Shown here in pieces: positions 8,934-35,775 of a stretch of 64,000 nt of DNA. Within the stretch, counting starts at the first letter, position 1; each line of letters opens with the position of its first letter. The stretch lies in NCBI GenBank assembly GCA_951394405.1, contig OX596339.1, positions 868,001 through 932,000 of the forward strand, written 5' to 3'. The notes under the pieces are model-generated. The model ran no database searches. It was not told the origin of the DNA and saw nothing but the letters and a program-made list of their open reading frames with translations. The position numbers and the translations under genes are program-made. The DNA is from Coprinellus micaceus (lineage: Eukaryota; Basidiomycota; Agaricomycetes; Agaricales; Psathyrellaceae).

Positions 8934-8935
8934 AG

Positions 8936-8946
8936 TTATGAGCCCC
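8936..8946 (+). promoter_or_regulatory. Primer-binding site, initiator-tRNA anticodon type
   Basis: Two bases after the 5' LTR comes GTTATGAGCCC, which is complementary to the anticodon stem-loop of eukaryotic initiator methionine tRNA (GGGCUCAUAAC). Copia-type elements are known to prime from an internal (half) initiator tRNA in this way, rather than from the tRNA 3' end. The match is seen; its use as primer is inferred. Confidence 0.7.
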
Positions 8947-14348: not shown

Positions 14349-14366
14349 ATACAGAGACATTACATT

Positions 14367-14373
14367 GAGGGGG
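14367..14373 (+). other. Polypurine tract of the copia element
   Basis: GAGGGGG just before the 3' LTR; expected start of plus-strand DNA synthesis. Confidence 0.65.
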
Positions 14374-14375
14374 TG

Positions 14376-14758
14376 TGTTGGAAGACAATGCTCATGTCAA
14401 CTCTATCTCTACAAAGAATACCTCTATTTCGAACGTTTTACTTATCTTCTATTGTTCTACAGAGAACAACAAGCACCTTGTATTATTCCCATTATACTCG
14501 CACTTATTGTTTTCTTATCTCCACCTTATCTCCATTCACTGCTATTGTTCTCTACTTATGGAACGTCTATTGTTCTTTTCTATTGTTCCGCATATAGGTT
14601 ATCTATTGTTCTCCACAGTATATAGTCCACACTGTAAGTGGGTGAGTCCCCATCGAACTCTCCCCACTTACAGGTGCGTATCTTGTATACCCTACTTACT
14701 TTCAATCTAACATCGAACTCTCCCCACTTACAGTGGGTCATACTTGCATCGTTCTACA
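14376..14758 (+). repeat. 3' LTR of the copia element
   Basis: 383 bp, matching the 5' LTR. It is followed directly by the GATCT target duplication at 14759-14763. Confidence 0.95.
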
Positions 14759-14831: not shown

Positions 14832-15899
14832 ATGGGCCCACAACCACGAAGCCTTCTTGAGGGCACTCCGGTAGAGATCCTAGATCTCATAATGCGAGAG
14901 GTATTCGTCATATTAATCCCCGTTACCTTCCGGTTACTCAAAAATACTGAATGGAGCACGTAGGTCAAAGCCGACGACTCAAGAAAGTTTGGGCGCTTAC
15001 GCCTGGTTTGTCCAATAATCAATGACGTGGCCGAGCCTTTGGCACTCAGCCGACTTGTACTGTCCTTCTCTGGCAGTAAGCTCGAAACTATGGAAGAAAT
15101 GCTTACCAATATGGAGTCAAAGAAGAGCCCTTTCGTCAACCAGGCCACCCAACTCTGGATCCACAACTTGCTCCCAAGCTGCTCAGATCCCGATGCTTAC
15201 ATGAAAAGCCTACTTCGACTCCAGTCAAAGTTACTAGTTCCAGCTATTAAATCGCTAATCAACGTCAACTCGGTAAAGTACGAGTCAAACCTTTCTCACC
15301 TTGCACGGGAAATCGCTCACGGATGCGATGCAGATACGATGCAGATTATCTGGACCCATATGGACCCATCCTACAGGCTTCGGCCAGCCTCCCAGGCCTC
15401 CGAAAGCTTGAGCTGAGCTTCAATGGATCAACCCTATTCATGCTGAACTTCGGGTTATTCTCTCACCTCACCGACATCCAATTCTCCTGGCTCCCGTTGG
15501 AAACCCCGGCGGTTCGCAGCGCTGCGAACGTAATCGCAAAGGGTTCCACTCTCACCACCTTACTCCTCAAATTAGACGGGGGGCAGCATGGGGAACCCGC
15601 CCAGCTGATAAATTTCTTCCAGGATGCCCTTGTCGCCTCTCCGATTAGTTTCGCCCCTTCGTTGAAGACACTCTCCCTTTTCTCAGGGCGGCACCTAACC
15701 CTCTCACCTTCTTCCGTACCTTTCCTGCGCTCTCTGACCCGTCTCGAACTATCGAGGGGTCACCTAGGAGAGTCGCAGTTTTGGACCGCCCTCGCCAAAT
15801 CCAAAGTCCGATTGCGAGCTCTACGCATTGCTGAGTTGGACATCCCTATAGTCCAGTACCTGACCTCTTTCAGCGGGCTCAAGGAATTTGTCTTCGATC
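14832..15899 (+). pseudogene. F-box/LRR gene C, 5' part (split by the KDZ element)
   Basis: Exons 14832-14900, 14964-15277 and 15334-15899 match F-box gene A in order, intron positions and phases: start MGPQPRSLLEGTPVEILDLI, second half of the F-box after intron 1, then leucine-rich repeats. The reading breaks at the codons for VFD (15890-15898), where the 8-bp target duplication and the KDZ left end begin. The 3' part resumes at 35776. Joined across the element the gene would encode 577 residues with no other defect that I can find, so the gene was intact when it was hit. As it stands, the protein would run a short way into the transposon (to 16054) and stop. Confidence 0.9.
15892..15899. 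repeat. 8-bp target-site duplication of the KDZ element, left copy
   Basis: CTTCGATC, exactly repeated at 35768-35775. Paralogue gene A has one copy of the same word at the same codons (LFDH). Confidence 0.95.
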
Positions 15900-15989
15900 C
15901 ACACTATAACACCCGGGTGTCATCAGCCAAATACCCAACCTGGGCCGACATCAGACCCAGCTTTGATGGGTTCACCTGGGCCCAGCTGA
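15900..15989 (+). repeat. KDZ terminal inverted repeat, left
   Basis: Starts CACACTATAA. The perfect 20-bp core is at 15935-15954, and further matches (TTGATGGG, then a CCTGG block) stay in register for about 30 bp more. The outer 35 bp are only weakly alike between the two ends. Confidence 0.9.
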
Positions 15990-16689
15990 TATCCCCTAAT
16001 GGCCAAATCGGGTGCCCCAGGTGGGATTACCCTCCATATAGGGAAAGTTCCTGAAACGGTCTGCGGATGGCCGAATTCGGACAACCGCGTGTGTGTCCGG
16101 CTGGAGTGCGGACGTAGAACGCCGGCTTGTTAACCATGGCGTGGAACCATGTTGGATGTGAGGGAATCTGGCGGATGAGCACCAGACGTGGGAGGGCTAC
16201 CTGAAATATACCGAACGAGCTTCGCCGGGAGAACTTGAATGTATATTTACAGACCAGTTGTCCGGTTTCTAATGATATACTCAGAATAGCCTTGTGCGGC
16301 ACACAAATACATCGGAATAAGCACGGATAACGAGAAAACCTCCCGACGCAGGGGTGATGGTGCAAACAGACTCAGTAGGTACCTGGTCAAACACAGAGGC
16401 ATAACGAAACACCTATGAGAGCGGTTAGTCAATAGACAACAGCGAGCCAGTACCAACGAATATGCCCCATTTAGCGACGTCCCAATCGCGTCCACAGCAG
16501 CATTGAGCTGCGCGAGGGCAAGTTTATTCATCCTCTTGGACACAATCTCACACTACCCGACCCATCACGCCATTGGCGTGTATGCCAATGAAAAGGCCCT
16601 CGCAAATTTGTAAGGCATGGAGCGTAATGACAACTACAGTGCAAGGAAATTAACGAGCAGTATACGTGAGACTAAAGGACACGGAGTAT
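15990..16689. other. Left subterminal region of the KDZ element
   Basis: No clear gene. There is a 98-codon minus-strand frame (16247-16543) without recognisable motifs, which may be a real small exon. The stretch holds several GTCCG/CGGAC words (about 16078, 16093, 16259), the element-wide motif discussed in the findings. Confidence 0.4.
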
Positions 16690-17181
16690 CTACATAACGT
16701 GTCCGCAATGTACAGAGAACAAAACAGGAGGACTGAAGATAAAAATCATTCCCGGGCGTTCTGGGCGGGTGTCAGTGGAATGATGAATGGAAGCCAACGA
16801 AGGGCTCACCATGGTCGTGCCCGAATGTTCTTCGTTGCGTATCTCAAGCCAATCAAGGAGTAGTTGCACCCTTGCCCCCATTGCGGTGAGTTCAGACTCC
16901 ATCGCATGAACCTTGCGCTTCAAAAGGTCCACATCACGTCCAACACCGTCCAGCACAGTGTCAAAGTGGCGATGGACAAGGGCGACCTCAGCAATAACGC
17001 CCTGGGCGGTAGCGAGAACCTCCAACTGGGATTCCATATATCCGGCTCCGAAAAGCTCCAAGGACTGGGCAATCGCTTCGGTGATGGTCAGCTTGAGGTC
17101 AGAAAGTTGGTTTTCCCCATGGCTGTCGGTAGGGCCACTCAGCGGAGAGGAGGAAGATGGGGGTGGAAACATCGAAGGCAT
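16690..17181 (-). CDS. Small helical/coiled-coil protein of the KDZ element
   Basis: A 163-residue frame on the minus strand. I do not recognise the family. After a serine/proline-rich start, the middle (about residues 25-115) is a regular helix with heptad-like spacing (SDLKLTITEAIAQSLELFG, then VGRDVDLLKRKVHAMESEL). An AT-G|GTGAGC splice donor follows the helix, so the last 45 residues may be intron read-through. It could be a structural or transposase-associated factor; this is only a guess. Confidence 0.45.
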   Translation of the reverse strand: MPSMFPPPSSSSPLSGPTDSHGENQLSDLKLTITEAIAQSLELFGAGYMESQLEVLATAQGVIAEVALVHRHFDTVLDGVGRDVDLLKRKVHAMESELTAMGARVQLLLDWLEIRNEEHSGTTMVSPSLASIHHSTDTRPERPGMIFIFSPPVLFSVHCGHVM

Positions 17182-17458
17182 GGGTATCTGGAACTTGTTA
17201 CGCAGTAAGAGAAAGTCTACCGGTGCGTGTATAAATAGGGAAATACGCCTACCGCATCGCGGATACGTGTCCGTGGATAGGATTTATGTCCGTTTACCTT
17301 TCCGTGTGACGGACAAACACCATTAGTGCACACGACGTGTCCGCACTCCCAATAGAAGTCCGTTCTGCGGATGCATTGTATTGTGATATTCGGAGAGGGC
17401 GTAAGCGGTACATGGACGAAATCCAGGCTTGGGAAAAGTGACATAGGGAAGGAATGTA

Positions 17459-18478
17459 TTACGTGGATCCCGAAGCCTCCGCTAATGCATTGGAGACGCC
17501 AGCATCTATGCTCCTCTTCTCCAGGTCCTTCAGCTCCTCCATGAGCCGCTGTGCTTGGACAATCTTCCTGTGAATGGTGGAGAGACGCTTGACGCTGTCC
17601 TTGACTTGGTTGTCGAGGAGGAAAACTGCGTCGCTGGAAATGGAGTGCGCCTCCTCGAGTTCACGAACAGTGCAAGCGGCGAGGTTGAGGGTGTTGAAGG
17701 CAGGGAGATGGTACGCGATATCGACGATCTTCCTTTGCAGCTTCCAACACGCAAGGGCGTGGATTGGACTGTAAGGGCTCATGGACGAGTTGGGATCGAA
17801 GGGGCACCACCAGGCCTGCTCATACCGGGGCAAAAGCCGATCAGGGCCCATGGGCTGGTTTGCGACAATCTCCATGAGGGATATCACATCCATATCACGA
17901 TCGCGGGCTCGTAGATCTGAGTAGAGGCGAGCAGCAAGGGGAAGGTCGATGAGCAGGCCGTGGATATTGAAACTATAGCCAAGGAGGAATGAGAAAACGG
18001 ACTATGACGATATCCGTGGTGAGTCAACGGGAAGCCCAGGGGAGTGATGTACAAACAAACATACGAGTTCGGTGCCCATCCTCTGCTTCCAGATCTCCAT
18101 CGCAGCCTTATCGGCAGTAAGGTCGTCGATGAAAGTAACCACAGTGGCGCAACACGCACGAACACGGCTCGAGGAAAAGTTGAGAAGAGATTGACATCCT
18201 TCAGGGCCGAGGGAGTGCAGCTCCTTCATGCAGGATACGTAGCTATCACCTGCCATGAGGGGAACAATGAAAACGGGATGGGCGGCAACGATACTTGAAA
18301 TCAGCGTGAGACGTGAATGGCGATCGGGATCCGTGCCGAGGATCTCGGGTCGGACGGAAATTGATGTCCGACGTGAACCAGTTTCCGGGGCAGCGCAAAA
18401 CTTTACGGCGTGGATTGGAACGATGGATATTTGATTTCGTTTCCAAAGATAAGTTGCATTAAATGAGGAACATGTCAT
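17459..18478 (-). CDS. Unknown KDZ cargo protein, alpha-helical
   Basis: Two exons joined by a phase-0 intron at 18002-18064 give up to 318 residues. The frame at the far end overlaps the transposase stop by 4 bases, so the true start is probably internal, for example the methionine of MAGDSYVSC. The C-terminal 100 residues are a helix with leucine spacing (VKDSVKRLSTIHRKIVQAQ, then LMEELKDLEKRS). There is no enzyme motif and no transmembrane segment that I trust. It lies directly downstream of the transposase on the same strand, so the two may share transcription. Function unknown. Confidence 0.5.
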
Positions 18479-21400
18479 TCAATACGAACGTCTACACCAG
18501 CCTTTCCGAACACGCGAGTGGCACGGGTTGCCATACAAGCCCACATGTCCGCTTGGCGGAAACAGTATGCCCGATGTCCGAGGCTTTCATGACTGTCAAC
18601 CCAACTCCGGGCTTTCGCATCCCTTGACCTGCAATACCGCACAAACCAATCCATCTCCGCCTTCAGCATTATCACCTCCTCCTTCCACCGATCAAGCCTC
18701 GACTTCCCTCGAATCCAATTCACGCGATACACTGAAAAACAAGTCAGGGGGCGGCGAGAGCCTGAATGGATCGGCGGACTCACTTTCCGTCATGTAGTCG
18801 GGGCGTGATTCCGTGTTCTTTCTGAGGGACATTGTCCAGATCCAAGACAAGCCCTCATTCCTCTGGCCAGGAGCATTTGGTTTGTACACCGATGTGACGG
18901 CCTTGAGATCTCCCCGTGTGATAACCTTCAAGTGTGCATGTTTATGCTTGATGCCAAGCTGTTCCAGTGCCCATGTCGACTCTTCATAACGTTTCACCTG
19001 TTCCCGCATCTCACTCTCGACTGTATTGATCTCGGCATAGTTCCTTAGCCTATCACGCTTGCCGAGGGCAAGCTCTTTGTTTGCTCGATACATAGCGGAT
19101 TTCTTCGCTATGTTCTTCCTCAGCTCTTCCAAGGATTCGTGAGCATGGGCCACGCGCAAGGCAGCCTCTCGTGGGACAAGGATCTCCCATTCTTTCGGCA
19201 GAGGGCGCACAGAGGAGGGGAGAGGGAGCACCATTGATTCCGCTCGATGCATGGAGATCTGCAAGCTTTTCCCATCTTCCCGGTGCGGACAATAGCACGG
19301 AATATCCTCCTCGCAGACGCATGGTTCGTCAGTGCCTCCAGAGGATTCCGTGAGATCCGCCAGGTCGATGTCCGTAAACAGCGACGACCCACGGGTATAC
19401 CATGCCGTAATTCGTTTCAGGAGAGCCTCCCGTCGATTAAACAGGGAAACTGTCGCCGTGTCCGTGGGCACCAACGAGTGTGCCATGGCCTGAGTCCGTA
19501 CCGCGATCCTTCACGCAGGCGTGTCAGATGGAGTCGAAAAAAAGAAGTAGATGGCAAGGTGGGAAATGAACCCACTGGGTGTGCTGAATTTCGATAGCTG
19601 CCTGAAGCCAGTTGGTGGCTCCTTTCACGGAGCCATTTCGACCTTCATCTTCGACGAGTTTGGCCTTGACAGATAGAGCGGAGTCAACTAATAAAGGGAG
19701 GTGTAGGTCTAAGGAAAGCTGAATTGCGATGAAAAAGGGAAACCCACCCTTGTCGACATTGGGAAGATAGACATCCATGGCTGAGAAGTCACCAGCCCGT
19801 CGCTTGCGATTTGCCGCCTCCATTTGACCTTTCCATACAGCCCGGTCGGTGGTAGAACCGGTCGTCTGAAGCGCGGTATAGTATTCTCTTGCTTCCCTAA
19901 GCCCTTCCAGCGCCCTTGCTAAAGAAGACACCAGGAACGCAACTATGTGTTTCGAACGTCAGCTTGAGGCGAATATACGCCGACATTACGCACCCATCGA
20001 TTGCAACTTCTTCCAATTGATATCCGCAATACATGCGTCCATCATCTCTGCTCGGTGCGGGAGAGTCATCGTCCGTGCAATGTATGCAACCTCATTCAGG
20101 ATTGACCACAAAGACTCCAGGATCTCACCACTCGTCATCCCTGCCCCAGGCATGAAGGTGCTCGCAAATCTTGGGAGGCAGTTCTCTTTGTGACCATGAA
20201 CGTGAAAGAGGCCGATAAGGTAGGTGATTTCAAGGTCCTCGGATATCGACAAACACTTGGCGGATTTGATCCTGGATCTCAGGTTGACGCAGTACTGGCA
20301 ATTGACGTCGTACGCGAACCGCAGGCCAGGGGTGCAATCGGCATTTGTTGTTTTTGCAGCCTGGTTGAGTGAGAGGTCGACGATTTGCTGTCTTTGACCC
20401 AGAACAAAGGTCAATATTGACTCTTTTCGACGAGTTAGGAGGGAGGTGAAAGGACTTACCGCTCTCCCTTCTCCATATCGACGACTGAGCTCGGCGCGAA
20501 ACAGCCATGTCGGGTACAGGCAACGGCGACAACACCTGTAACATCGTAGCCCCTTTTTGGCTTATCCTTGTCTTCCACAGCGGAATGGTGATTGCATGTC
20601 GGGATCTGGGGTTTTCCGAATGCGGACAAGTGATGAGGAAGGAGTATCGACACGGAAAGCACAAGGTGAGCCCGTACCTGATCTGTGTCGTCGGAAGAGG
20701 GGATGTGCTCCTTTAAAAGACCGCTCCCGATCATGTATGCAGCTCCATCTGTCAGTGAAACCCCGGGAACGGTGCCCCTAGAAAGGAGGTGATTGAGAAC
20801 AAAATTGCCGTCCGTCATGAGGTACCTCCAGAATTTCCACCTGTTGGGAGGGCGTTGACGCAGTGCCATCCGAAATGAAAGGAGGTACCCACGTGAATGG
20901 ATCACTTTCCCAGCCAGGTGGGAGGTTGACACCAGGTTGGGGACAAACGGCACAGAACAAGGCCAGATTTCCAAGCCCAGGCTTCTGACCTCGACGGTCG
21001 TGCGCAAAGCCATAGCGTTTCAGAAGGACAAGAAAATTGTATTGCTGCCACACTCTCGCGAGCTCTCGGTGACGATTCTATAGAATATGTCAGTGAATTA
21101 CTGATGGAAAAGGAATCAGTGGACCTACGGGTGTAGCATCCGGAAATGCGAAGTTCGTCTTCCGCCGGAGGATATCGCAGTAGTTCTCCGTGGACATTTT
21201 TGCTTCAACCTTGGTGAGGTGAAAGTCCTTCAACAATTCGAAAGTGAATACAGTATTTATCTTCTTCCATGAAGCCGGGAAGAACCCCATCGAAAGAAAC
21301 TGAATCTCCTCAGGAACGGATGGCACAATATCAGGAGCGGATCCATCGTCTCCGGACTCCGCGGATGGCTGTTCTCCTGAGAGGCCGCATGGGGTATTGC

Positions 21401-22332
21401 ACAGGCACGGATAAACGGGAATCTGGTGGAATCCATTGACATGTACGACAGTGATGAAGCGTCCAGCACCAAATACGGTGCACTCAGGCACAGCACCATA
21501 GGTGTGGTCGTTATCCGTCACCGGACATTTATCCTTACAATTGTTGTGTTTGAGTGCCCTGTCTTCAATGTCCGCTTGGGTATGGGTATATCGTGGGCAC
21601 AGTGTGCCGTCATGTCCAAGGCACAGGATGTTTCCGACGTGCCAGAGCCATGCAGGCTGGAATGAATGGCCATTCCAACATTCGACCCGATGGAGGGTTG
21701 TCCGACGATATCCGACCTTGCAGCAAAGTCGGCACAAAGGCACCCCAGGGGTGCAATCAAGGCATCTCCAGTTTGCGCCCTCACACCCACATTCATAGCA
21801 AGTGGACCTCCCCCGTGCCTCGTTGTCCAATAGGGCATCTAGCCACGGCCGAGATTTATCGCGGAGCCACTCCTCCATGTACTCGTGAGTTGTCTGCAGG
21901 CCAATGAGCACTTTGAAACAATGGAGGTCCCAGCAAAACTGGACGTACTGTGCCTTCGCTCCTTTTCGTCTTGTCAGTCTCGAACAGGGCTTCTTTGAAG
22001 ACGGGCTCCGGATCCTGGGTGTCGTGGATGGTAGTCCGACCGTCGAGGTGAAAACGATCACTATCACATTGGTCGTCTACGTGTTCGTTCGGAAGGCCAT
22101 GTGGTGCTGTTGTGGGCGGTGAAGGGGCCTTCTCCCTGGTTTCTTTGAATTTCCGCTTCTTTGCACGAGGTTCTTGGGTGTCCGACTTTATGAGGATAAC
22201 CTTGGGGATGTCGCAAAGGCCTCGTTTCGTTCGCGTCCTTGCAAGGTGCATCTCAACCGGACCCTTGGTCATCCTGGTTCGCATGTCGGAACAACGTGTG
22301 TTGGGTGAGGGGCAGGATGGGGGGCAGGGCAC
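18475..22332 (-). CDS. KDZ transposase with CxC2-like zinc cluster
   Basis: A multi-exon gene (about nine introns, all with GT..AG) for roughly 1,100 residues. The N-terminus is basic. A cysteine-rich CxC2-like cluster follows (YECGCEGANWRCLDC, then LCRLCCKVGYRR). The catalytic core has the blocks typical of KDZ transposases: WRYLMTDGNF, GVVAVACTRHGCFAP with VVDMEKGER, RFAYDVNCQYCVN, and HVHGHKENC followed by GAGMTSGEILESLW. These hold the presumed acidic catalytic residues (D of TDGN, D of AYDVN, E of LESLW). The C-terminus (SWIW..., YRVNWIRGKSRLDRWKEE, MDWFVRYC) is also typical. Other family members usually read DGE where this one has SGE. No stop or frameshift was found when the introns are removed. 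The enzyme would cut at the element ends and reinsert with an 8-bp duplication. Confidence 0.88.
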
Positions 22333-22613
22333 AATCGGATTGTGGAGGAATAAGATCTGGGTGGTGATATGCAGGATTTAATTGGACAAAACAAACAGCG
22401 ACAACATTGACACCGGTGCCACAAACCAAACAAGAAGCGGACCACAGCAAACCAAGATACTGAACCAAGCCTCGTTGAGAGCGGACAGTGGACGTAACCG
22501 TGGCGGTTAAAAGCAGGCCCTGAAAGTTCTCGTCAGCCCCATCCCAAGCAGAACAACATTCCTCCGTCACCGAACTCCTAAGCAATCTGCCCCTCAATCA
22601 CCCGGTCTCCTCC
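22333..22613. promoter_or_regulatory. Divergent promoter between the transposase and the homeodomain-like gene
   Basis: 281 bp between two start codons that point away from each other; it must hold both promoters. It contains CGGACA near 22480. No TATA box stands out. Confidence 0.45.
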
Positions 22614-25289
22614 ATGCCTGCCGCCACGCCCAAGCCACCGCCCACGGACAACGAGTCCGATGATGGGTTATCCGACAGTGAAGAGTTGGACCTCTCGCTC
22701 GATGGTGCCCTGGATAGCAAGTTCACTCAAGCACAGCTGAAGGTTCTACACGCCGCGAAGCCGGAATACAAAGAGGCCACCCCTGCTCTCAAGGCTGAGG
22801 TATCGAATCGTGTCGCCGAGACCTTCATGACGGAAATTCAAGCCACTGGTCGCCGACTCAAGCGGCAGGAGAAGCGGGCACTGACAAGGGTAACACTTTA
22901 TGCCAGTCGATTTGTAGGGTTTGCAGTACTGACATAGTACGTTCCTTCAGCTAGTCCGGAAGTGGTTTTCCCAGCGGTCGCGGAAGAGGCAGAGGGTCCC
23001 GATGTGGGGCATCAAATGGAACAAGAGACAGACATTCTACAAGCAGAATATGCCGTTGGTCGCGGCACGCCAGAAGAAGTTATACGACGCAGCGATCGAA
23101 CAACTCGTGGCAGCGGAAGACGAGAAGGAAGAGGCGAAGGCGAAGGAAGTGGCCGAGGTGGATATGGATTGTGTTGGAGAGGAGGCCGAGCTTGATGAAG
23201 TTCTGCCGGCGGAGGCGAGGAAACTGACGCCGTTCTTTTTCTTTCAGAGAGCCTTGACCGAGGAGCTTGCCCTGCTTGATGACGAAGAGCTGGACATGTA
23301 CCAACGGTTGGCGGAAGAGTGGAATGAGAGGGGCCCCAGTAGTGACGAAAGGAAAAGGTCAGTTTCTCTTCCTCACGTCTCGCCCACATCACTGAGAAAG
23401 GTCTCTCTCCTCCTAGGTTCGCGGAAAAGGATGCTATAAGGGCGACGAGGGAGTTCCACACGACGATGTGGACTCACATGGGCGTCCGGATGTTCACGTT
23501 CTTGGCTTACGAGGATATAGTTGATGAAGTGGTCGTTTGTGCGTCGCCTTTCTTCCTGCTCCTGGGTACCATGGTTGACGTTTCTCGGTGATTCATTCTA
23601 GCCATGGAGGACACCAGCAAGCAGCTGGGCCTCAATTCATTCAAGTCCGACTTCCGGCCCGCGATCCGCGCCTGCAATATCTTCCGTTTGTGGAAACGAT
23701 TCGTGAATATGGAATTCCAGGAGGAAGACCTCCACGTTCCTCTCAGGGGTCGGTGCAAGCCACTCCTCTCACTGGAAGTGAATGACTTCAAGGACCCCTT
23801 AATTCCTGACCCAGACGACAAGGTGAAGGGCTGGGCGCGGTGGGAGTATCTGCCCCATTTGATTCGGACGCTTGTGACAATGTTTGTTGGTAAGTCTTGT
23901 CTCTGTAATGGGATGAAATACGTCGTCCTAACGGGGTACCTAGCCCTAGCTTCGGGGAAGTTGAAGGAACACGTCCACGTCAAGTGGGGGCTAATCGGAA
24001 AAGACATCCGCACCTACATCAACATCGACTATGTCCCCGACGATATGATTCACCTATTCCGAGAGCCCTCTTCCCTCAAGGTGAAGCAGTGTCTGACACT
24101 CCTTCGGCACTGGTACAAGCGCCAGGAGGAAGGCCTCATAGCCTTTGCATTCGACCAATACATCGACGATGACGGTGAAGCAGCGCCAAGCCGACCCCGC
24201 GTGTACGTCGGCAAGTCTTCCGCCTCAAGGACGAACAAGCCCAAGGTCAATCCCGTGCTCTCGGACAACTCGGCGGAGCATGGTTCTGGTCCACTCTCCA
24301 AGGGTCGTAAGCATCACGCCGTATCAAACAAGAAGACAGGAAAGACCAAGGCTCAGAACAAGCAATCCAATAAGGCCAAGTCGAAGGCGAGGCCGGACGA
24401 CGAGGATCAATATGCATTGTCCGTCATTTCCGCCGCACTCGGAGTGACAGAAGAGGAGTTGTCCGCATCCATTGTCCGACCCAAGGCAAAACGTGTCAAG
24501 ACGAAGCATCGCAGCAAGGTCATCGTGTCGGGCACCTCACCTTCATCTGTTGCAACACCATCCATTGGTTACATCGATGATTATCCCTCTCTTGCCACCC
24601 AGGCGGCATTGTCAGGAATTGGTAAACACAACATCAACCTTGTGCGGGCACAATCGATTTCCACCCCGTTGAAGGCACCGTCGGAGACCCCTACTCTCCA
24701 GGGGGACTCAGGGACCTCCATCTCAGCAAACGGAGCTTTGAAGCCTTTCGGAGAGAGCGCAAGCCACCTGTCCCATCACTACGAAGAGGACAAGCCCGCG
24801 TCCATCTCGAGGCCCACATCCCCATCCATATCCACGACACACGCTGCGCTCACGGATATATCGCACACCTTGCCCACGGGGAGCCTTGACGACATATGGA
24901 ATACGCTTAACCCATCGGCAAAGGCACACCTACTCAAACTCGCTGACGTGGTTGACGCTCCGATAGAAGAGACCATTGAAGGGAGGAAAGTCGGAGATGT
25001 CGTTGGCAGTATCGTGAAGATCGAGGTGGTGGAAATTTCACCAAAGGCGCCCCCAGTGTCCGACGATCAGGACGACGAACATATGGGCACATCGCATGCA
25101 CGCGACATCCCGCCTTCTCCCAGCAGCTCTTCCACCATTCCTGCTTCGCCAACCACGGTAAAAGTTCCACGCATCGCGGAACATGTTCGGCTTGCCCAAG
25201 AGGCAGAGAATCATATGTATTGGGCATTGAAAGATTCAGAGGCCCCCAGAGCACGGAAGTCGACGCAGAGGTATGATCCTTCCAAGTGA
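22614..25289 (+). CDS. Homeodomain-like KDZ cargo protein
   Basis: Five exons (22614-22889, 22951-23357, 23417-23538, 23602-23889, 23944-25289) give 812 residues. Across the first intron the reading gives VRKWFSQRSRKRQR, which resembles the recognition helix of homeodomains (WFxNRRxKxRR). A region of conserved look follows (TTMWTHMGVRMFTFLAYED, then NSFKSDFRPAIRACNIF). The C-terminal half, from about residue 400, is low-complexity and rich in Ser, Lys and Pro, with basic stretches that may be nuclear signals. I know similar WF/basic-helix proteins as large unassigned families in mushrooms, but not their function. Its head-to-head position with the transposase suggests a partner or regulator in transposition; that is inference. 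Confidence 0.7.
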
Positions 25290-26227
25290 ATACTCCCTGG
25301 TATGTGTATTCCGCTGTTTTCAATGGAACAAGCCACTGATATTGTCGGCTTAGACGCTTGAGCACCTGGTCCTTTCCGTGCACGGAGTGCATTGTCCGTG
25401 CCTTTCCGCAGTTGTGTTGTCCGTTATCCGTCTAGTCGGATGGAAGTCGATGTCCTCACCCACCCTGGTCCCAATCTCGCTGTTGCCCAGCCATGGATGT
25501 CCACTACGTAAATGTATTCCCATTGCTCCGTCCATAACCTAGCCTGTACGCTCATGTCCCGACAGCCATTGTCTTATTCAGTCCCTTTCCGGAACTTGTC
25601 CCTCCCGAGTCTATCCGCCCATGTTCACTTTTCCGCGTCATTGTTCCTGCCTCTCTCACGTCATATGTATTCAGAGTCTATTGTGATGGTGAATCCCTAC
25701 AGTCGCACATTTGCACAGTCATTAATATATGGATCTTCACTTGACATACGTTCGCTTCCGACACGGACGTTGTCCGCATCTGGCAGACGCCGGACAACGC
25801 TGGACGGCGACACAGCCAGCATGTGCCATGCTATTCGGCAAACACCGTTCACGACATTCCCTTTCCTCTCCTTTCCAACACGCTGAGGCGTCGTCGGGGC
25901 CGGCATGGGCCCCGTGATTGTCTACGATCCGTTGCCATGTCGGTCCCATGCATCCCTCACGACAGCTTGATCTTCCCCGTCGGAAATGTGCCCTCTCCCA
26001 CCCATCGTAGGTCCTTTCCCGTGAATGGACCTTCTCTGCTCACTGGTTAGAAACCGGTAGATAAAATAATCAAGTCACTATAATACACGTAGGAGAGGGT
26101 CATGCTGTGGTTCATAGAAGGGATGGACATACGGAAGATTGTTCGACGAGCGCGGCACACCGTTCAGGTGAGGGAAGGGGATGGGTAACTACTTGGAAGG
26201 AGGTCACGGACGACGACCAATAAAGAT
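25290..26227. other. KDZ intergenic stretch rich in TGTCCG words
   Basis: No gene seen. At least four TGTCCG/CGGACA copies occur (about 25395, 25418, 25768, 25790). It separates the 3' ends of the plus-strand homeodomain-like gene and the minus-strand coiled-coil gene, so it must include both terminators. Confidence 0.45.
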
Positions 26228-29200
26228 CTACTCAGCCTCAGGATGCGCCCGCGTCACCCTCCCATGCCCTCGGATCTGTGTCCCTCTTCCCAGCGACTTC
26301 CCCAGTGCGCCATTCTTGCCCCGTCCTCTAGTTGCACCCCTGCCCCTTCCTCGTGCTCCGCCCTGCGCCTCAGATGTTTCCGTCGGGACTGTGCGTCTTC
26401 CTGGGGCAGCCGCGGAAACCGAGGTTTGGTTCAACAGGGCACGATCTTCCTCCGCTTCCAGCTCAGTGAGGGTTGTCATCGTGGACATGGTGGTTGGTGA
26501 ATCTCTCCCACTTCCACTTGCCCCTCCATCGTTGTCCTCCATCCGGACGTCATCCTTTGGCGCCAAGGCTTGATCCGCTCCACTAGGGTCGTAGTCGACG
26601 CCTTCGTCGTCGTCGCTCTCTTCAGCATCTTCATCGTCTTCACATTCACCCTCGCCACTCCCCTCGTGCTCACTCCCCACACCTTCCCAGGGAGGTGAAT
26701 CAACGCACTCTTCCCCTGACCCCTCATCCATCGTTTCATCGTCCTTAGTCGTCTCCGTCGAGTCAGGCAGTTTCCCGGCTGACGTCTTCGAAACTGAGGT
26801 GATCATGGAAAGAACAGCTGATGCTGTCGTCGTCGTCGTCCCCTGGCCTGTAGACGTCCCACGAGCTCTCTGGATACTGCCCCACACAGCGCGCTGGCTG
26901 ATCGTATTCGGACCAGGAATTTCGCCGTCAGTGAATGAGGATAACGACAGGGCGAACGGAGGTGCAGGAAGGGGGGGAATCGGATGTGAAACGCTATGTC
27001 CGCAGAAAGTGAAGGGATCCGCAAGGCTGGCGGCACTTGTCCGGGGCGCGGGCGTTGGTGTCGTTTCAACGTCCATGGGAACGTTGCAGCGACTTGGCGT
27101 ATGTTGGGTATCCATGGCAGCCTTCCCCTCGACCTCCGATGGCAGTGTTGTCGTTGATGGGCCGTCGCCAGAGGTTGGCGCACTCTCAGAGGCCGGCACA
27201 CGGGAACTCAGACTCTGCTTTCCGAGGACCAGGAACCTTTGGAAGTCGGCCTCGGACAACTCGGTCCGTTCTGCTTCGACCTCGTCCTCGTCACTTGACT
27301 CAATTAATCCGCTGTGATCAAGCCCTGATGAAACGCTCCCAGAGCCAGAAGATATGGCGTGAACCTCCTCGTCCGCTAACTCGCGCTTCAGCGATTCCGC
27401 CTCCCTCCTCGCATCTCCCTTCGCCCGCATGTTCGCCAGTAACGAAGCGACCTTCTCAGATGCACTCGGCTTCGGGGAAGGTATATTGGAACGAATGGCC
27501 TCGTTCTGGGTGAGTGGGAACGGGTTGAGAGACGTTCCTGCGCCGGCGATGGGAGGAGCGGAAATGGGAGCCGGAACCCCCATCGCCAACGCTCCCGCAA
27601 CTGAACCCTTCCCGAAGGCTTTCGTGACTTTGCCGAAGACGAACAGCGGGTGCTTGGGCTGGTCATCATCGGTGGCAGGGGGATCGCGGCGTTCAAACTG
27701 TAGTCGCACTGCTGCCTCGGATAACTTGAGACACGCGGACAACGTCTCGTGGAGCAGAGGATTCCCTTGAGAGAGGGAAGCCTGAAGGGCACGAAATTGG
27801 GCTTGAAGTTCTTCTCGAAGGGTACTCATTTCGGTTGTCAAGGCCGCCACCTGCTCCCGGAGTTCGTCCCGACCGTCTTTCCTGCTCTGTTCCATTGTAC
27901 GCTCCAGGGTATTGACCTTCTCAATTAGCCCGACACCGGGTCGTTCGGAAGCGGCATCCGCGGACGAGTCGGCGTCGGTTTGTGCAGCCTGTTGTCCGTC
28001 CAGGCGTGCGTGGAGCTGTTCCACCCTCGCGGAGAGGCCATCGTGGTCTCGCTTCAGGCAATCCGAAAGCTTCGGCAAGATCTTTCCCTTCGCCAGCTCA
28101 TTAAGTTCCTCAACCTTGCTTATGGCCCAAGCGTGGTTCTCCTGCAGGGCCGTGTCAATGCTGTCGATCTTTGGTTGAAGTGAGCCCGCAATGCGCTCGG
28201 TGAGCCTCTCGACCTGGGCTGGGTAGCGCATCTCGATGGCCTTGACGCGGGTCATCGTTTCCTGGGTCATCTCATCGGTTGCCTCCCAGTCCGCCCTGAT
28301 GTCCCCCATGTCCCCATCCAGTTCCTCCATCTCCTTGACGTTCGCCCAAACCTGCCCTTTCATGTCGGCAAGCGCTTCTGCCTGCGCCCTCTGCGTCTCC
28401 TTGATGGAAGACACTTCGAGAATGACATCCTCGAGCTCGATCATGCCTTCTCCTGCGTTCGCCGGTCGAACCCTATTTGCATCATGCTCGACTGGATTCC
28501 CCGCGGGTGCCTGATACTGATGTTACTGTGAATTCAGGTTAAAAATGGAAACAACGCACCTTGCTTGGACCGCCTACTTGGGACCTCGTACTTATCCGGC
28601 TGGCGGATCGTGACGTATCCGCGGACTGGCCGGCAGCAGGCTTGAACATGATCTTCTCCCTCCCATCCACGGTCCATATCGTGTCTTGCTTGCTAGGTCC
28701 AGCTTCGCTCGTCAATCCCGCATTCTTCGGTCGTCCTTGCTCACCCGGATTTACCACGTCCGCTTCTTGACCCTCCGCCTTGACCTTTCGACGTCGGGGC
28801 TTCTTATCGGATCCCTCAGGCACGGGCTTCTTCCTCTTCCACGACTTCTCGCACATCTGCTTCGACTTGCGGCAGCGGTCACACGCAATCTTCGGCCCTG
28901 AAGTCGCCTTGCAAGTCTTCTTATTTGGAAGACACCACGCCGAGCAAGGAACAGCGAAACACTGGACACCGTTGATGTTGATGAGAGTGCGGTCGACGCC
29001 GTCCTTCGGCGGAAGTTGAGGATGCGACGTTGTGGATGCTGTGTCACCGAGCTCGTCCCCCTCCATCTTGTCCACTACGATCTCACCGGTGGGAGCCTGC
29101 ACCTTTCTCTTCTTCGACGGAACTGTCTGGGCCAGGGGAACATCCTCCTCCTCCTCCTCCTCGTCTGAGTCGCGCTGCGGGGTTTTCCGCTTCCGGGGGA

Positions 29201-30193
29201 CACCGTCCACCAGCATGGTGTCGTCTTGCAGGAGATTGGTGTCCTTAACGAGACTTCCGCTCCCATCCCCGTCGTCGTCACTGCCTTCAGCTGCTTTCGC
29301 TCGAGGGACAATGTCCTCCTCATCCCCAGGGCTGTCGGCACCTTCTCCCTCGTCCTCTGAATCATTGAGCGTAAGCTCGGCCTTCTTGGGCCAAGGGGTT
29401 TGTTTCGGCCTTCCTCCCTGTGCTGGCTGGGGTAGATCGACGTTCATCTTCTTGTTGTCCGTGCCCGCTGACTCTGCTTGGTGCTTCCGCACCGGTAGAG
29501 GGGGTGGCCTGATGACGCCCTTACCCTTCGAGTTGTCCACGCCAACAGACACCTTGTTTCCCGAACCCTCTTTGGCAAGAACGGGGTCAGGAGTGACCCC
29601 TTTGGAACCTGTTGCATCCTTCATCTCAACGTCCACCGCCTCACCCAACCTCGCATCCCCTTCCCCTCTCCTTACAACCCCCGATGTCTGACGCTTCTTC
29701 TTCTTTGCCACAACCCCGGTAAATCTTGGATTCTTGAAGATACTGAGGTCGAGGGGCCGTGGCGCCATTCCATGCTTGCTGATCGTCTGCACCATGTCGC
29801 CTATCCACCACCTCATTCGATCCGAACACCCATGGCGCTCAAAATCTTTCATTCCGTCATTGAAGCTGTTCACAATAATCCACTACAAACGGCATCAAAA
29901 TTAAGCAAGGTAACACGTTTCGGATAACGCACGGATATCTGCACTAACTCCTGCCTCTTTCCAGTCAAAAACAGGCGGGCTCCCTCCGGATCCGCAGGTG
30001 CCTTCCAGGAAGGTGCTTCCTGCAACATTGCCTCCAATGCCTCAATGCATTGGATCAGTTCTTCGCCCACCAACACCATGGTCTGGATGTCACTGATACT
30101 GCCTCCCTCATCCTGTTCCACCGGTCGGTTCTTTACGGAGGTGGTTGGGGCTCGGCTTCCTGATGGTATTCCCTGCTGTTTAGTTGCTTGCAT
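26228..30193 (-). CDS. Large acidic coiled-coil protein with cysteine cluster (KDZ cargo)
   Basis: Exons 29933-30193, 28560-29882 and 26228-28516 join in phase 0 at both introns, giving 1290 residues. The first 90 residues hold a short helix (VGEELIQCIEALEAML). The middle is basic/acidic low-complexity sequence with a CKCII-like rich run of D/E. Around residue 385-415 is a cysteine cluster (WCLPNKKTC, then ACDRCRKSKQMC) that resembles the paired-cysteine zinc clusters of fungal DNA-binding proteins. A long coiled coil follows (about residues 545-770: MIELEDVILEVSSIKETQ onward), then a Ser/Pro/acidic region and an RG-rich tail (GGARGRGRGATRGRGK). The design suggests a nuclear, nucleic-acid-binding scaffold; function unknown. 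Confidence 0.7.
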
Positions 30194-30378
30194 TGTGGTG
30201 GTAGCCCCAGCGTCAAGAGTGCGTGATGAAAGTTGAGAACAAAGGGCGTTCGGCGGTAATGACGTTAAGACTGCCTGGGAATGCACTGTGATAGCGGACA
30301 ACATGAGCATGTCACATGTTCGACATTCGTTCATTGCCACACGCCCACCACGTTTCTCTCCTCTCGTTCTTCCCCTCA

Positions 30379-31174
30379 ATGGCGACCAAGTCTTCTGGGA
30401 AAGCAAAAAAGGCGCCGCTCCCTGCAAAGGAGGTCATCGAGATTGGTGAGCACGACCGGGCCTACTCGTAGGTTTCGCATCTCACTACACGCTCGTAGCC
30501 GACGACGCACCGGATCCGTTTTTACAACTTCGCCAAATGGCGAAGGGTCTTCCACCTGGATCCGTTCATGTTAAGATGGAAGAGGAAGATATTGAGATGA
30601 GCGGTATCCTTGATACGGAGCGGGGAGGGAAGGACGTGGACCTGGAGACTCGCCCAGGTGTGTGGTGTTATCACGACTTCGGTCGATGTTGAGCCGGAAC
30701 GCGTTGTTAGGTGCAGGTAATGACCGTCTGGCCTTCCCGCTCAAGAGACCGGGGGGAGTGAATCTCGTCGCACCACTCGTGCAAGCGGAGCTTTCGAAGA
30801 TGAAGGACGCATTCACCATCGAGGCTGGTGGATCCCGCGATGGAAACGACAGCCCCCCGGCGTCGAATTCAGGCTCTGCCACCCCAGGGACCCGAAGCCC
30901 TCAACTCTCAGTGTTCTGGGACTTGGGAAATCTCGACGCTACAGCCATCGCCACACAATTCCTCACGGACCACATCAACGACCTCATGCGCATGCGCACA
31001 GAACTCACAATTCTTCACGAGAACCTTCTTCGCACTCGAATTGTCGCTGCGAAGACCAAGCACTGTCTCTCTCGCGCCCTTTTCACCACACAGACGGGCC
31101 AGGACATGCAGGAGGAGATACGAAGGAGGAACATCGATATACCGTCGAGTCGGACGCATGCAAATGCCATCTAG
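30379..31174 (+). CDS. Unknown KDZ cargo protein, 229 residues
   Basis: Exons 30379-30445, 30499-30657 and 30711-31174, introns in phase 1 each with clean GT..AG. It starts MATKSSGKAKKAPLPAKE (basic), then an acidic patch, then a conserved-looking core (RLAFPLKRPGGVNLVAPLV) and a C-terminal helix with heptad leucines (INDLMRMRTELTILHENLL). It lies head-to-head with the coiled-coil gene, 185 bp apart. I do not know the family. Confidence 0.6.
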
Positions 31175-31760
31175 GCCACACCCTCGGTTCCCCCGTTCTG
31201 TTGACTTACGACCGAGTTCCTGTACGATTTATGCGACTTACCGTCCAATATATGTGCTTTATATTCGATCTCCCGTGTGCACAAACGTGGGTGGTGTCGG
31301 TCAACTTCTCTTGCCGCCTCTCCCCTGGTCCGCGTTGTCCGCCCTCGGATTGGGCGGAGTCGTTGTCCGCCCTCGGATCGTACACTGTCGTTGTCCGCCT
31401 ATAATATCTATCCGATACGACGGAGCGGACACCAAACATTCCTTACTTGTCCTCGTCATCCGCACCATTGTCCGACGTATCCTGCGCAGGTTATCACCAG
31501 GCATTGCCTTCGCGTCGATAGCCAAAATTCTTACCTCCTTCACCTAGTCCGTCCGCACCAACGGCGTCTCGGTCATGAGGCCACCCACCTTGCCTCGTTC
31601 CCCACAACCTAAAGTTTATGTTTATTCGTGACCCAGGCGATTGGCGCCTCCATAAGCACACCTCGACCTCATAAAAGCTCTCGCGTTCCTGAGTTGCACG
31701 CTCCTCAGTCATTTCCCTTCACACGCCCACCCACCTCACTCGCCGCAGCCCAGCATCGCC
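31175..31760. other. KDZ intergenic stretch with clustered TTGTCCG repeats
   Basis: No gene is supported, although long frames cross it. Between 31337 and 31480 there are five copies of TGTCCG/CGGACA; three of them are GTTGTCCGCC within 55 bp, two with the same following CTCGGAT. This is the densest cluster of the element-wide motif. Confidence 0.55.
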
Positions 31761-32230
31761 ATGCCCCACATCTGCTTCTGCCCCTCGGAGCATGGCAAGG
31801 TTAGTGTTCCTCACTCTGCACCCTGCATACGCAGCCGCCAACGATCACATGAATCCTTTTCAGCTTCCACCGGGCCCTCAGATGGAATGGATATACGAGG
31901 TAGCACACAGTCACGAGAGAGTGTGGAAGCACTACCGAGTAGTTGACGAAGAATTCCAACGCCAACACTGGCACCTTTGCTGGGAAAATGATCACGGTGG
32001 TGTACTGCCATGCGAGATACCACCAGCCCTCCGTGACGCAGAGAAAGCCTGGGCAACCTCTTCCGCAATGCTCAGGCAAACCAACGATTGTCTGTTCGAT
32101 GCTGGCAGGCACGATCTTTCCGACGCCCTGTCCAACGCGCTGAGTGATGTCATGTTTCCCTGTGAGTCTTGTTTTTTCCCTGGCCATTTTCGATCCTCAC
32201 TCCACAGGGCCATTGTGTAGACCGCCATGA
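31761..32230 (+). CDS. Small unknown KDZ cargo protein
   Basis: Exons 31761-31799, 31864-32161 and 32208-32230 give 119 residues in frame. The start MPHICFCPSEHGK is cysteine/histidine-rich. The main exon is helical with several tryptophans (PPGPQMEWIYEVAHSHERVW). No family recognised. The last exon is short and the least certain. Confidence 0.45.
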
Positions 32231-33117
32231 TGTTCACGACTTCCTGCAATTCTGATGACACCCCTGTTCCTTTCCGTGCTTATGTTTCCTTAGATCCTTG
32301 TCCGTCGTTTGTGTAGATGTCTATGCCTCTCGCTCATAACATATTGTTGGGGTCTCCTATCTCTCTATACTCACAGACGCTGTACATCGCCAGATCCGCT
32401 TCGACTTCATACCTTTATGTCGCGTGTTCTCACACAGTCCGTGAATCGCTTCAGCTTGCTCTTCTTGACCGAAGGCGAATCTGATCATGACTGGCTGTCC
32501 CACCCATAAAACACAAGGAATATGACCAGTCTTTCTCGTCGACGCACAACCAATACTTCGCCTGGGTTATCGCAGCGGGGCTTCGACATATTGCACAAGT
32601 TCGGCTCTTTCAACCATGGATGCATCTCGACCTTACTTGCCTCACAGGTTCGTGTACGTCAACGAGATCCTCCAAGTGGGCAAAGTGAAACACGCGATGA
32701 ACGCATGGAAGCAGCAAGGCGATGGCACTGCCCATATTTGTATCCACGCCCTAACACCGACCCTTCACAGACATGCACTCCACAAATCTATGGATCGACA
32801 ACTGAACGACGCGTCGTGCGTGTGTCCAATGCCTCTCTAACGTAGCGTTGTCCGGTAAGGGAACGCAGACATGGATGAAGCGGAGCAACTTCTCGGGGAG
32901 TGTCCCAGCGGACAACATCTACCGGACAACGTGATCTCCACCGGGCAACCAAGAGTCCACAACAGATTAGTGACAGAGTTCCTGAGCCTATCGTAGTTGG
33001 TAGAACACCTGCGTAATGACGATGATAATGTTCTAACGGAGGGGCGTCGGATTAATACGGACAACGACTCCGCTACCTCGGAAATCATACGCTGGACGGA
33101 AGACGTCGGATAAGGCA
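32231..33117. other. KDZ intergenic stretch, possible gene fragments
   Basis: A 74-codon frame at 32616-32840 (start MDASRPYLPHRFVYVNEI) may be an exon or a remnant. I could not join it convincingly to the gene at 33118. Four TGTCCG/CGGACA words lie between 32845 and 33065. Confidence 0.35.
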
Positions 33118-33899
33118 TTGTTCATCTCCGCAAGTCACGCTCTCAATAATATCACGTTTGTATTTCCAGCATTGCGTGTCGACATTCGTTCCCGCAGCAT
33201 CCACTTTAACCAACTTGCTGTCACCCCCATGAAACTGATTACCGCGACTGAGGCCATTGCGTTCTCCTTCTTCCTGGAGGGCCGAATCATACACTTCCTC
33301 GAATATCTTTACGCAGGTCGTTTGCACCTCCCGTTTGATCAGTCTTACATCGATGTCTTCTTATCCTACCTTGTATGTCGCATAACCTCCTCACTAACGC
33401 GTGCCACTCACCTCCGTTATCCTTCTCCTTGATCGCCTAGGACAATGCTCTCATTTTCGATGGGCTACGCATGTGTGCTGTGAAAAATATCGACATGCGT
33501 CAAGTCCACCTCTCAATGGTCATCAGCAAGCTTCATCACTACACGGAGTCGAACGACGACCTGTGGTTTGCCCTCACCTCTGGCATATTTCTACCTAAGG
33601 CGTCGCGGGATTGTCCCACGTTCTTGGGTGAGGATGTCCGGGAATGGTGGACGGAAAACCCGTGCCCGACCTTGGCGGATCTGTTGTCCGAGTGGGAAAG
33701 TTGTGGAGGGGTGAACGGCACGGACAAGGTCGATATGACGGAACAGGCAATCACCGACTTGATAGGGTTCTTGGACGCTCTGGAGATGCACCTTGTTGGA
33801 ACTGCAAGGGATATTGCAGAGTTGCTATCCCCTGTGGAAGTTAAGCTATCACACTTCCAAGATCTGTTGCATGATATGAGTGCTGTAGCAGCTGCATGA
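33118..33899 (+). CDS. Unknown KDZ cargo protein, faintly BTB-like
   Basis: Exons 33118-33372 and 33441-33899 join in phase 0 for 237 residues; an upstream exon is possible because a good 3' splice site lies at about 33170. The segment IIHFLEYLYAGRLHLPFDQ followed by ALIFDGLRMCAVKNIDM recalls the end of a BTB/POZ fold (a ...FL.YLYTG... pattern), but the N-terminal half of such a domain is not visible, so I do not assign it. Its 3' end faces the TET/JBP gene, 84 bp away (tail-to-tail). Confidence 0.5.
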
Positions 33900-33983
33900 A
33901 TGGGGACCCCGCGGACTCGTAATGTAACGCTTGACGAATTGATAACTCTACTCTACACATGAACGAAAGCATGTCTCGAAGTA

Positions 33984-35449
33984 CTACTTGACGTGAATTC
34001 TTTCATCCTCCATAACGGACTGGAGCAGGGCCGAAGTATGGTGACCCCAGTGGTAGGTCAACCACCGGTGACAAGGTGGTCCCTCGTCAACCCACGTTTC
34101 CTCGCCTCCCTTCCTGTGAGCGAATTGACAGACCTCAGGGCGGACAAATCCCGCGAAACATATCCGCTCCCCCTCAACCTCCGCCGCACCATGCTCATAT
34201 AGGTATCCCGGAAGAAACATGCCGGTACCTGAATTGTACGGAAATCGGGCAGATAGTACCGGAACCTCGAATCGACCTTCCTCATACCGCCCGAAAGTGC
34301 TGAGGAAGTCAAACATGAGGGGACCTCCGGAAATGTCCCGATGGAACGGACTTTCCCGATTACAGAGGAACGCGATTCCGTTGAAGGGGGAGGTCCAGTA
34401 GCGGTATGCGAGGTTGGTACGGACGTGGTCCGACGTCTTGCAGTGATGGTTGTAGATGCGCTCGTGTGCGTTCAGCTGCCTATTGAAGGCATCAGGGTGA
34501 AGGAGAGAGAACACGGCTCCGATGATGGAATTGGTCTCCATGAGGTCGGAGATAAGGGCCTGCCCCCCTGTCCCATCGAATTGTCCAAACGTCACGGAAG
34601 GTCCTGGTTTGCAATCCGGGTTCCTCTTCAATCGTCCAGAATAGTTAGTTGTTGCAGCTCATTCCCTGGAAGGCGATGTACGTACAGAATGCCCCTGCGG
34701 GAACCAACAAGGGCTAATGTTGACCACCCCTGGTTTCACAAGGCAATCCGAGGGGTCCTTGAAGTAGGCCTGACCGCTGCGCCAGTTGTCCTTCCCTGCG
34801 AGCATCAGAGGTCTGTCAACCTCGGATGCACGCCGGAAGATTGACCATACTATTTCCTACTCGGATAGTCAGAATTTGGGATCGGGTGGTGAACTGCATT
34901 ACTGCCACGTAGCCACGGAGATTCCACTCACCCTACGACGCTCCGTGAACAGTCCGGGCAAGAAGCACAAGGCAAGCTTCTCCGCAGAATCCACAATCAT
35001 CGTGGGACCCTCAACCAGACGCGACTGTCCATCGGGGCCCTTCTTGAATGGCGACGGAAAGTGTTTCAGCAAGAAGTCGCGTTGGGTGATGCTGCCTGGT
35101 TTGGACTGAAGGGAGTCGTGCATGTCCTGGAGTGAATACTCCAGACGAACTGCCGTTCTCATGCTTCAGCACGCGCTTCCGATGGAAATTGTGCCGCGTA
35201 CTCACCGATATTCTGATTCGCCATATATATCTGCTCAACTGCCGTTGCTAGTTCACCCGCGACACGTAGAGATATTTCCCTTGGTCGTCTCCTCGCTTCT
35301 GCCATGCCAGTTCGCTCGCGCATGAGCGCCAAAGAGTAGTCGGAAAACAGCGTAAGCATGCGCTGGGCCCTTGAGAGCTGCTCATCAGGAGCGCGAGGGA
35401 CTGGGTTGAGGGTCATGGTGGTTCTGGTCTGTGTTTCAACATCAAACAC
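33984..35449 (-). CDS. TET/JBP-type 2-oxoglutarate/Fe(II) dioxygenase
   Basis: Exons 35206-35449, 34932-35149, 34686-34856 and 33984-34625 give 424 residues; an internal ATG at 35416 is an equally good start. The C-terminal exon holds the double-stranded beta-helix core. The iron-binding HxD is in SPFHRDISGG, followed by the LLSTLGR-like segment FDFLSTFGRYEEGRFEVP. The distal iron histidine is in YLYEHGA and the 2-oxoglutarate-binding arginine in GERICFAGFVR. This order and spacing are those of TET/JBP proteins, which oxidise 5-methylcytosine or thymine in DNA. Fungal members are known to be expanded and carried by KDZ transposons. All three metal and cofactor residues are present, so the enzyme may be active. 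It lies about 230 bp inside the right inverted repeat. Oxidation of methylcytosine on the element or host is inference. Confidence 0.83.
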
Positions 35450-35677
35450 GGGCTCGTCCCAATCCCACGTGCGGCGTGTCGCTCTATTTCCGCGGGCGCG
35501 GGGTTGTCATACACCGAGAGCGGACCGTATTTTTTGATTCGGTGTCCGACGTTGCTCGGGCAACGGATGCGGCACCTCTGGCTGGTGGCTGGTGGCTGGG
35601 GCCGCCCAGCCCGGCCCTTTATGCTACGTCACTGCCCTGGTCCCAGGTCGGCCGTCACTTCAGTGGCACTATAGCTC
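35450..35677. other. Right subterminal region of the KDZ element, promoter of the TET/JBP gene
   Basis: Short GC-rich stretch between the dioxygenase start and the right inverted repeat. It has a GTGTCCGAC word near 35541 and a small direct repeat of GCTGGTGGCTGGTGGCTGG at about 35580-35598. Confidence 0.45.
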
Positions 35678-35767
35678 CCGAGCTGGGCCAGGGTAGCCCA
35701 TCAACCCAGTATCTGATGTCGGCCCAGGTTGGTCTTGCCCCTGTTGCCACTCCTGCTGAATGGGCTG
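35678..35767 (-). repeat. KDZ terminal inverted repeat, right
   Basis: Read inward on the minus strand it starts CAGCCCATTC. The 20-bp core lies at 35713-35732, the same offset as in the left end. Confidence 0.9.
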
Positions 35768-35775
35768 CTTCGATC
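35768..35775. repeat. 8-bp target-site duplication of the KDZ element, right copy
   Basis: CTTCGATC, the second copy; F-box coding sequence resumes directly after it. Confidence 0.95.

Follow-up and report, generated by a model that had tools for sequence, protein, structure and literature searches.

Known KDZ elements and the locus in Coprinellus micaceus

DNA transposons of the KDZ superfamily that carry a TET/JBP dioxygenase gene have been reported as complete Kyakuja elements, including Kyakuja-1_LB, Kyakuja-2_LB and others (PMC12730594, main text). Two Laccaria Kyakuja families exhibit 7-bp target-site duplicates and CA..TG tips and are devoid of terminal inverted repeats; the same text proposes that TET serves the escape from silencing and suggests, for Agaricomycotina, that it acts without target specificity. 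The KDZ elements of Cryptococcus neoformans are mobile, with duplicates of 8 bp for KDZ1 and 4-8 bp for KDZ2 and KDZ3 (PMC12810828, available text). Every intact KDZ transposon of Pleurotus is reported to be preceded by CxC2 (PMC7641404, available text), KDZ and Plavaka elements have been described in Marasmius (PMC8290104, available text), and oxidised cytosines have been mapped in two mushrooms (PMC8889193, available text). Here we analyze element W, located in a 64,000-bp stretch of Coprinellus micaceus contig OX596339.1 (G000:C6:868001-932000, hereafter the window, to which positions given without a contig refer). With a probability of roughly 90%, we read W as a Kyakuja-like DNA transposon of the cut-and-paste type within the KDZ superfamily, complete and apparently intact, that has inserted into a host gene resembling leucine-rich repeat (LRR)/F-box genes, the transposition mechanism and the block inversion described below being part of that reading.

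The W transposase contains a KDZ domain (PF18758, 143.6 bits against a curated cut-off of 26.6) and a CxC2 cysteine cluster (55.1 bits against 27), in agreement with the preliminary description of this stretch, which called the element a KDZ transposon. W resembles the TET-carrying Kyakuja elements in its KDZ transposase, its AG-type TET/JBP enzyme, its CA..TG tips devoid of true terminal inverted repeats, and its completeness with duplicates. It differs from the published ones by an 8-bp duplicate, and by further genes and two gene orders that go unmentioned in the available text of PMC12730594. With KDZ1-3 of C. neoformans, W shares the superfamily and the insertion into a gene; in contrast, those elements measure ~9.2-11 kb, possess CxC1 instead of CxC2 and terminal inverted repeats of 139-241 bp, and the available text does not mention TET (PMC12810828). 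The TET enzyme of W, a predicted relative of CcTET from Coprinopsis cinerea (PDB 7vpn), resembles it in the oxygenase domain and the key residues. Complete KDZ elements with all cargo had first been called seldom delimited, but complete TET-carrying Kyakuja elements are already published (PMC12730594, main text). W is a known kind of element, and its borders were correct as first reported. What seems to be new is a family with an inverted core and a set of co-conserved genes of no assigned family: neither extra genes nor an inverted order was found in the literature on Kyakuja, KDZ with TET, cargo and inversion, subscription papers and supplements being outside that scope.

Borders of W, related elements and the host gene

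The borders of W are exact to the base. Its left tip reads CACACTATAACACC... and its right tip, read inwards, CAGCCCATTCAGC...; since their outermost agreement is CA alone, W has no true terminal inverted repeat. Instead, the inverted similarity of its ends is subterminal, with 48-nt arms of 81% identity and, at positions 36-56 counted from each tip, an in-register core where all 21 bases agree. Both ends exhibit ACCTGGGCC, or a version of it with two changes, at bases 39 and 74-75 from the tip. A search of the genome (50.3 Mb, 17 contigs) with 509 bp of each W end returns five and three matches, including the window itself, and the others belong to three elements on contigs C2, C10 and C13. 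All three start with CACACTATAACACC and end with GAATGG(G/A)CTG, at the same terminal base as W, and because each possesses its own 7- or 8-bp duplicate, the W borders do not depend on a single insertion. The C2 element matches W in four DNA blocks of more than 700 bp at 66-71% identity and has an identical gene order. The C13 element resembles W over ~90 bp per end only, its interior being other, unrelated DNA; as W-like ends here enclose other DNA with a duplicate of its own, it is probably a non-autonomous derivative moved in trans. Together with two elements of the other gene order described below (C12 and C1), six elements are delimited at both ends, all with CA..TG tips, the duplicates of W, C2, C10, C13, C12 and C1 measuring 8, 7, 8, 7, 7 and 7 bp, respectively (7 bp in four of six, 8 bp in two of six). 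In the C10 sister copy, gene D is split by ~4 kb (G000:C10:1944416 and 1948554), which would account for the greater length of this copy.

The host exons on both sides of W are free of stop codons and frameshifts, and the frame resumes across the insertion between FD and H. Paralogue A (C6:869842-870660, 44% identity over query 1-273) crosses the insertion point without a stop, and a second paralogue (C6:824632-825429) is likewise uninterrupted there. The F-box name is based on an F-box-like motif and sub-threshold LRR matches: Pfam analysis of the 128 N-terminal residues of the host gene reports no family at E-values up to 5, and an F-box is likewise unsupported at the N-terminus of paralogue A. 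Relatives of the host gene cluster at G000:C6:678-1117 kb, with 19 of 22 matches on C6, self and exon matches being counted. The upstream neighbor is a Ty1/copia long terminal repeat (LTR) retrotransposon, with LTRs identical over 383 bp, one 1647-codon open frame, an RVT_2 reverse transcriptase, and an integrase core at 31.1 bits, just below the cut-off of 32.6. As this element stops 73 bp short of the likely start codon of the host gene at 14832, the host locus has been hit twice, once in the likely promoter. Excision restoring the host gene would need the exact loss of one 8-bp duplicate; if both were left behind, 8 extra bases would shift the frame.

These results bear out the base-exact borders (15892..35775, duplicates included) and the split host gene with its frame preserved on both sides, as first proposed, and a check for copies with ends elsewhere returned three relatives sharing the terminal bases of W. 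The inverted cores are in register from both ends as claimed but extend over bases 36-56, not 36-55, and the F-box assignment keeps its motif but not Pfam support. The absence of any other defect in the host gene is not supported for the promoter. The two gene-bearing relatives (C2 and C10) do not qualify as further copies of the same 19.9-kb content. An insertion qualified as recent is plausible, the host exons being open, but it is undated: the genome search found no near-identical copy of either 509-bp W end, and non-self protein matches to B, D, G, F and C are well below identity.

Table 1. Features of W and its surroundings in the window, and related elements elsewhere in the genome
Feature	Coordinates	Strand	Remarks
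Element W	15900..35767	.	19,868 bp; KDZ (Kyakuja-like) TET-carrying DNA transposon, 5'-CA..TG-3' tips; terminal bases as in C2, C10 and C13 elements
Left target-site duplicate	15892..15899	.	CTTCGATC
Right target-site duplicate	35768..35775	.	CTTCGATC
end2	15900..15982	+	ACCTGGGCC at bases 39 and 75 from tip; D-side tip of C12 and C1 copies similar: CACCCTATAAC
end1 (TET side)	35685..35767	-	ACCTGGGCC at base 39, ACCCTGGCC at base 74; TET-side tip of C12 and C1 copies similar: CAGGGCATTCAGC
p129	16746..17181	-	predicted, 128 aa; C2 counterpart 41.6% identical; best E in C12 0.61, unconvincing
Gene G	17459..18229	-	predicted, 235 aa; main exon without Pfam family
Transposase gene	18475..22272	-	predicted, 1114 aa, 8 exons; CxC2 1e-14, KDZ 9.6e-42
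Gene B	22614..25289	+	predicted, 810 aa; no Pfam family above cut-off; C12 relative with weak HMG-box hint, E 0.052
Gene C	26228..30193	-	predicted, 1271 aa, acidic, cysteine cluster; relatives only in C2 and C10
Gene D	30316..31174	+	predicted, 250 aa
Open frame E (no gene model)	31693..32220	+	31861-32154 kept in C2, 58% over 98 aa; best E in C12 0.45, unconvincing
Gene F	33229..33899	+	predicted, 200 aa; adjoins TET in 14/14 clusters where found
TET/JBP dioxygenase	33984..35162	-	predicted, 333 aa; HRD, Gly +5, Asp +11 as in CcTET
C2-conserved block	35201..35422	-	66%; outside gene model
Host gene, 5' part	14832..15899	+	exons 14832-14906 (or -14900), 14964-15277, 15334-15899
Host gene, 3' part	35776..36616	+	exons 35776-36095, 36152-36616
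copia LTR retrotransposon	8551..14758	+	LTRs 8551-8933 and 14376-14758; duplicate GATCT
C2 element	C2:3805821-3827136		21,316 bp; duplicate ACCTGTC (7)
C10 element	C10, about 1927776 to 1953168		duplicate GATTCGGC (8)
C13 element (L004, L076, L005)	C13:2490745-2501682		10,938 bp; duplicate GCCCACC (7)
Canonical element C12	C12:217168-239489		22,322 bp; duplicate CTCCGGG (7); read through
Canonical element, C1 copy			duplicate GGTTGTG (7)

Elsewhere in the window, open frames with BRCT domains are located at 51135-53771.

Gene content and gene order

Gene prediction with a simple model of codons and splice sites, for which the window served as training set, gives eight genes in W when those of at least 80 residues are kept. 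The blocks conserved in the C2 element agree with them, and add open frame E and a block at 35201-35422, outside the TET gene model, which may represent the 5' part of that gene. In the transposase, candidate residues for the acidic catalytic triad were picked out by eye. Pfam analysis of the TET gene reports Tet_JBP (E 7.2e-13), and comparison with the PDB returns two matches with good E-values, 8jkk (2.1e-25) and 7vpn (CcTet, 2.3e-25); the alignment keeps the His-x-Asp motif, the downstream His, and the equivalents of Gly331 and Asp337 of CcTET, residues that have been tied to activity on 5-methylcytosine and N6-methyladenine (PMC12730594, main text). In contrast, p129, G, B, C, D, E and F did not return any Pfam family above the cut-off. 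For gene B, none of 7,991 scored candidates among public proteins reaches an E-value of 0.001, and a profile of three sequences run against the PDB gives a best E of only 0.2. AlphaFold, run on the main exon of G by itself, gives an uninformative model (mean pLDDT 47). Comparison of W with the C2 element by NG86 over nine coding blocks (the eight genes and E) gives a nonsynonymous divergence (dN) below the synonymous one (dS) in all, with dN lowest in TET (0.16), 0.21 in the transposase and highest in p129 (0.56), and dS of 1.45-2.85; dS being saturated, only the direction dN < dS is safe.

Profile searches of the genome report 31 TET matches and 107 KDZ matches counted exon by exon, and B, D, G, F and C were searched for at the protein level, all genome counts being lower bounds. 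TET, KDZ, B and D were clustered within 28 kb. All 31 TET hits entered the clustering, and each KDZ, B or D gene was represented by a single position (64 of 107 KDZ matches, 24 of 51 for B and 17 of 20 for D), the remainder being extra exons. This yields 25 mixed clusters and 34 that contain KDZ alone; TET never forms a cluster by itself. TET and KDZ occur together in 22 clusters. In 19 of these, TET is located 3' of the transposase gene and faces it, an order that we call canonical, these 19 including identical or near-identical pairs and representing fewer independent families. In the three others (W, C2 and C10), TET lies beyond D at the opposite end. The gene order of W differs from that of the majority of TET-carrying clusters in the genome. 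G was detected in 18 clusters (15 canonical, 3 inverted) and in all of them lies 3' of the transposase gene; of the 13 canonical clusters having a D match, 12 show D on the side expected; and F lies beside TET in all its clusters (11 canonical, where the matches are weak with E 4e-6 to 3e-4, and 3 inverted).

The canonical element C12 was compared with the C1 copy, both ends being set where their identity stops. Its order is end1, TET, F, G, transposase, B, further coiled/acidic frames, D and end2. On the TET side its tip resembles the right tip of W, and on the D side the left one. The simplest reading is a single inversion of the block G-transposase-B-D between constant tips and the TET/F pair, with W breakpoints, as compared with C12, at the F/G and D/end2 boundaries. 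These breakpoints are where p129 and E sit, and neither has a convincing match in C12. The three inverted copies form one clade in the TET tree with a support of 100/100 (23 rows from 28 TET loci, four identical rows and the partial L036 having been dropped, the weak L037 and L038 being left outside, and the root placed at the midpoint). The inverted order is taken as derived because it is rare and because of this root.

Alternatively, the end1-TET-F module might have been captured anew on the other side of the element. Transfer of TET genes between transposons is reported in rusts (PMC12730594, main text), and the extra p129 and E at the two breakpoints of the inverted family would suit such a capture. 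However, W shares with the C12 and C1 copies both the TET-side tip (CAG..CATTCAGC) and the opposite tip (CAC.CTATAAC), each on its own side, F stays next to TET, and transfer between superfamilies was not seen for the AG type in the main text of PMC12730594. Recapture would also require the replacement of the opposite tip, whereas one inversion suffices for the tips and the position of F; we consider recapture unlikely and retain the inversion. We find it similarly improbable that W is a preserved remnant that is now immobile: the missing near-identical copy would fit, but the eight predicted genes and the host exons are open, the key TET residues are intact, and cut-and-paste movement does not require a second copy. 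Although 8-bp repeats are common by chance within 64 kb, a chance direct repeat around unrelated genes is refuted as the origin of the borders, its probability being negligible, by three further elements that fix the same tips with different duplicates, by the 21-base core, against a longest in-register run of 10 among 20,000 random pairs drawn from the window, and by the paralogues uninterrupted at the site.

Several observations weigh against the reading of W as an intact Kyakuja-like element with an inverted block and a protective TET enzyme. The gene models are predictions from sequence, and the same model broke the C2 transposase in two. The probable assignment to Kyakuja is based on tips, duplicates and TET type, and the duplicate has 8 bp instead of the 7 bp of the two Laccaria families (PMC12730594, main text), a variation that has precedent since C. 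neoformans KDZ duplicates span 4-8 bp (PMC12810828, available text). The subterminal ACCTGGGCC pair is missing from the C12 ends, so that agreement between the two orders is limited to the outermost tips. One canonical cluster (C10:1727920) has its D match (C10:1750801) on the TET side, 16 kb beyond TET, and the C1 cluster contains two weak TET pieces beyond D. The protein search of the genome found no gene C outside W, C2 and C10, and a C12 frame left of D has a C-like cysteine cluster but no detectable similarity to C (best E 1.2); after these comparisons, gene C was dropped as a member of a shared core. The observed/expected CpG ratio has medians of 0.911 at TET loci (n=27) and 0.884 at TET-less KDZ loci (n=26), which do not differ significantly (p=0.08); CpG depletion as a sign of TET protection was dropped, being both not significant and confounded by near-identical copies. 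Lastly, the lack of target specificity suggested in Agaricomycotina (PMC12730594, main text) weighs against a protection confined to the enzyme's own element.

Other TET loci exhibit features of their own. Five TET genes (L015, L016, L024, L025 and L029, on C2, C7, C13 and C4) possess HRH instead of the usual HxD, and all five have another TET gene no more than 3.6 kb away; they make up three distinct rows in one clade and are, judging from these residues, a predicted altered-triad paralogue. The TET regions L015/L016 and L030/L031 (C2 near 4.54 Mb and 5.14 Mb) show no difference at any of the 3450 and 3417 bases compared, which include no border, and represent either a duplicated segment or a very recent copy. 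The canonical copies L021/L022 (C8 and C13) have 99.94% identity across the 3320 bases that lead up to a sharp TET-side tip, CAGCACC..., a pattern suggestive of recent movement.

Proposed mechanism and implications

For the CxC2 and KDZ transposase, the probable mode of action is binding to the paired subterminal motifs and cleavage at the CA..TG tips, which would result in the 7-8-bp duplicate. The TET/JBP enzyme, by comparison with CcTET and the literature, probably oxidises methylated cytosine and may thereby counter the silencing of W and perhaps of other elements. The remaining W genes, as their co-conservation suggests, are probably accessory transposition or anti-silencing factors. A broader proposal, which we put forward tentatively and with more doubt than confidence, views the TET-carrying KDZ elements found in mushrooms as multi-gene transposons built around a conserved core, which would comprise at least six proteins (transposase, TET, B, D, F and G); in such transposons, TET and F would form a fixed anti-silencing module at one end while the rest could flip as a block, B, D, F and G being undescribed partners in transposition or demethylation.

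Exact ends are now available for both gene orders of TET-carrying KDZ elements within one genome, the TET gene having the lowest dN of the nine blocks, and companion genes of no assigned function are named. Such defined elements make the idea that TET enzymes shield transposons testable.

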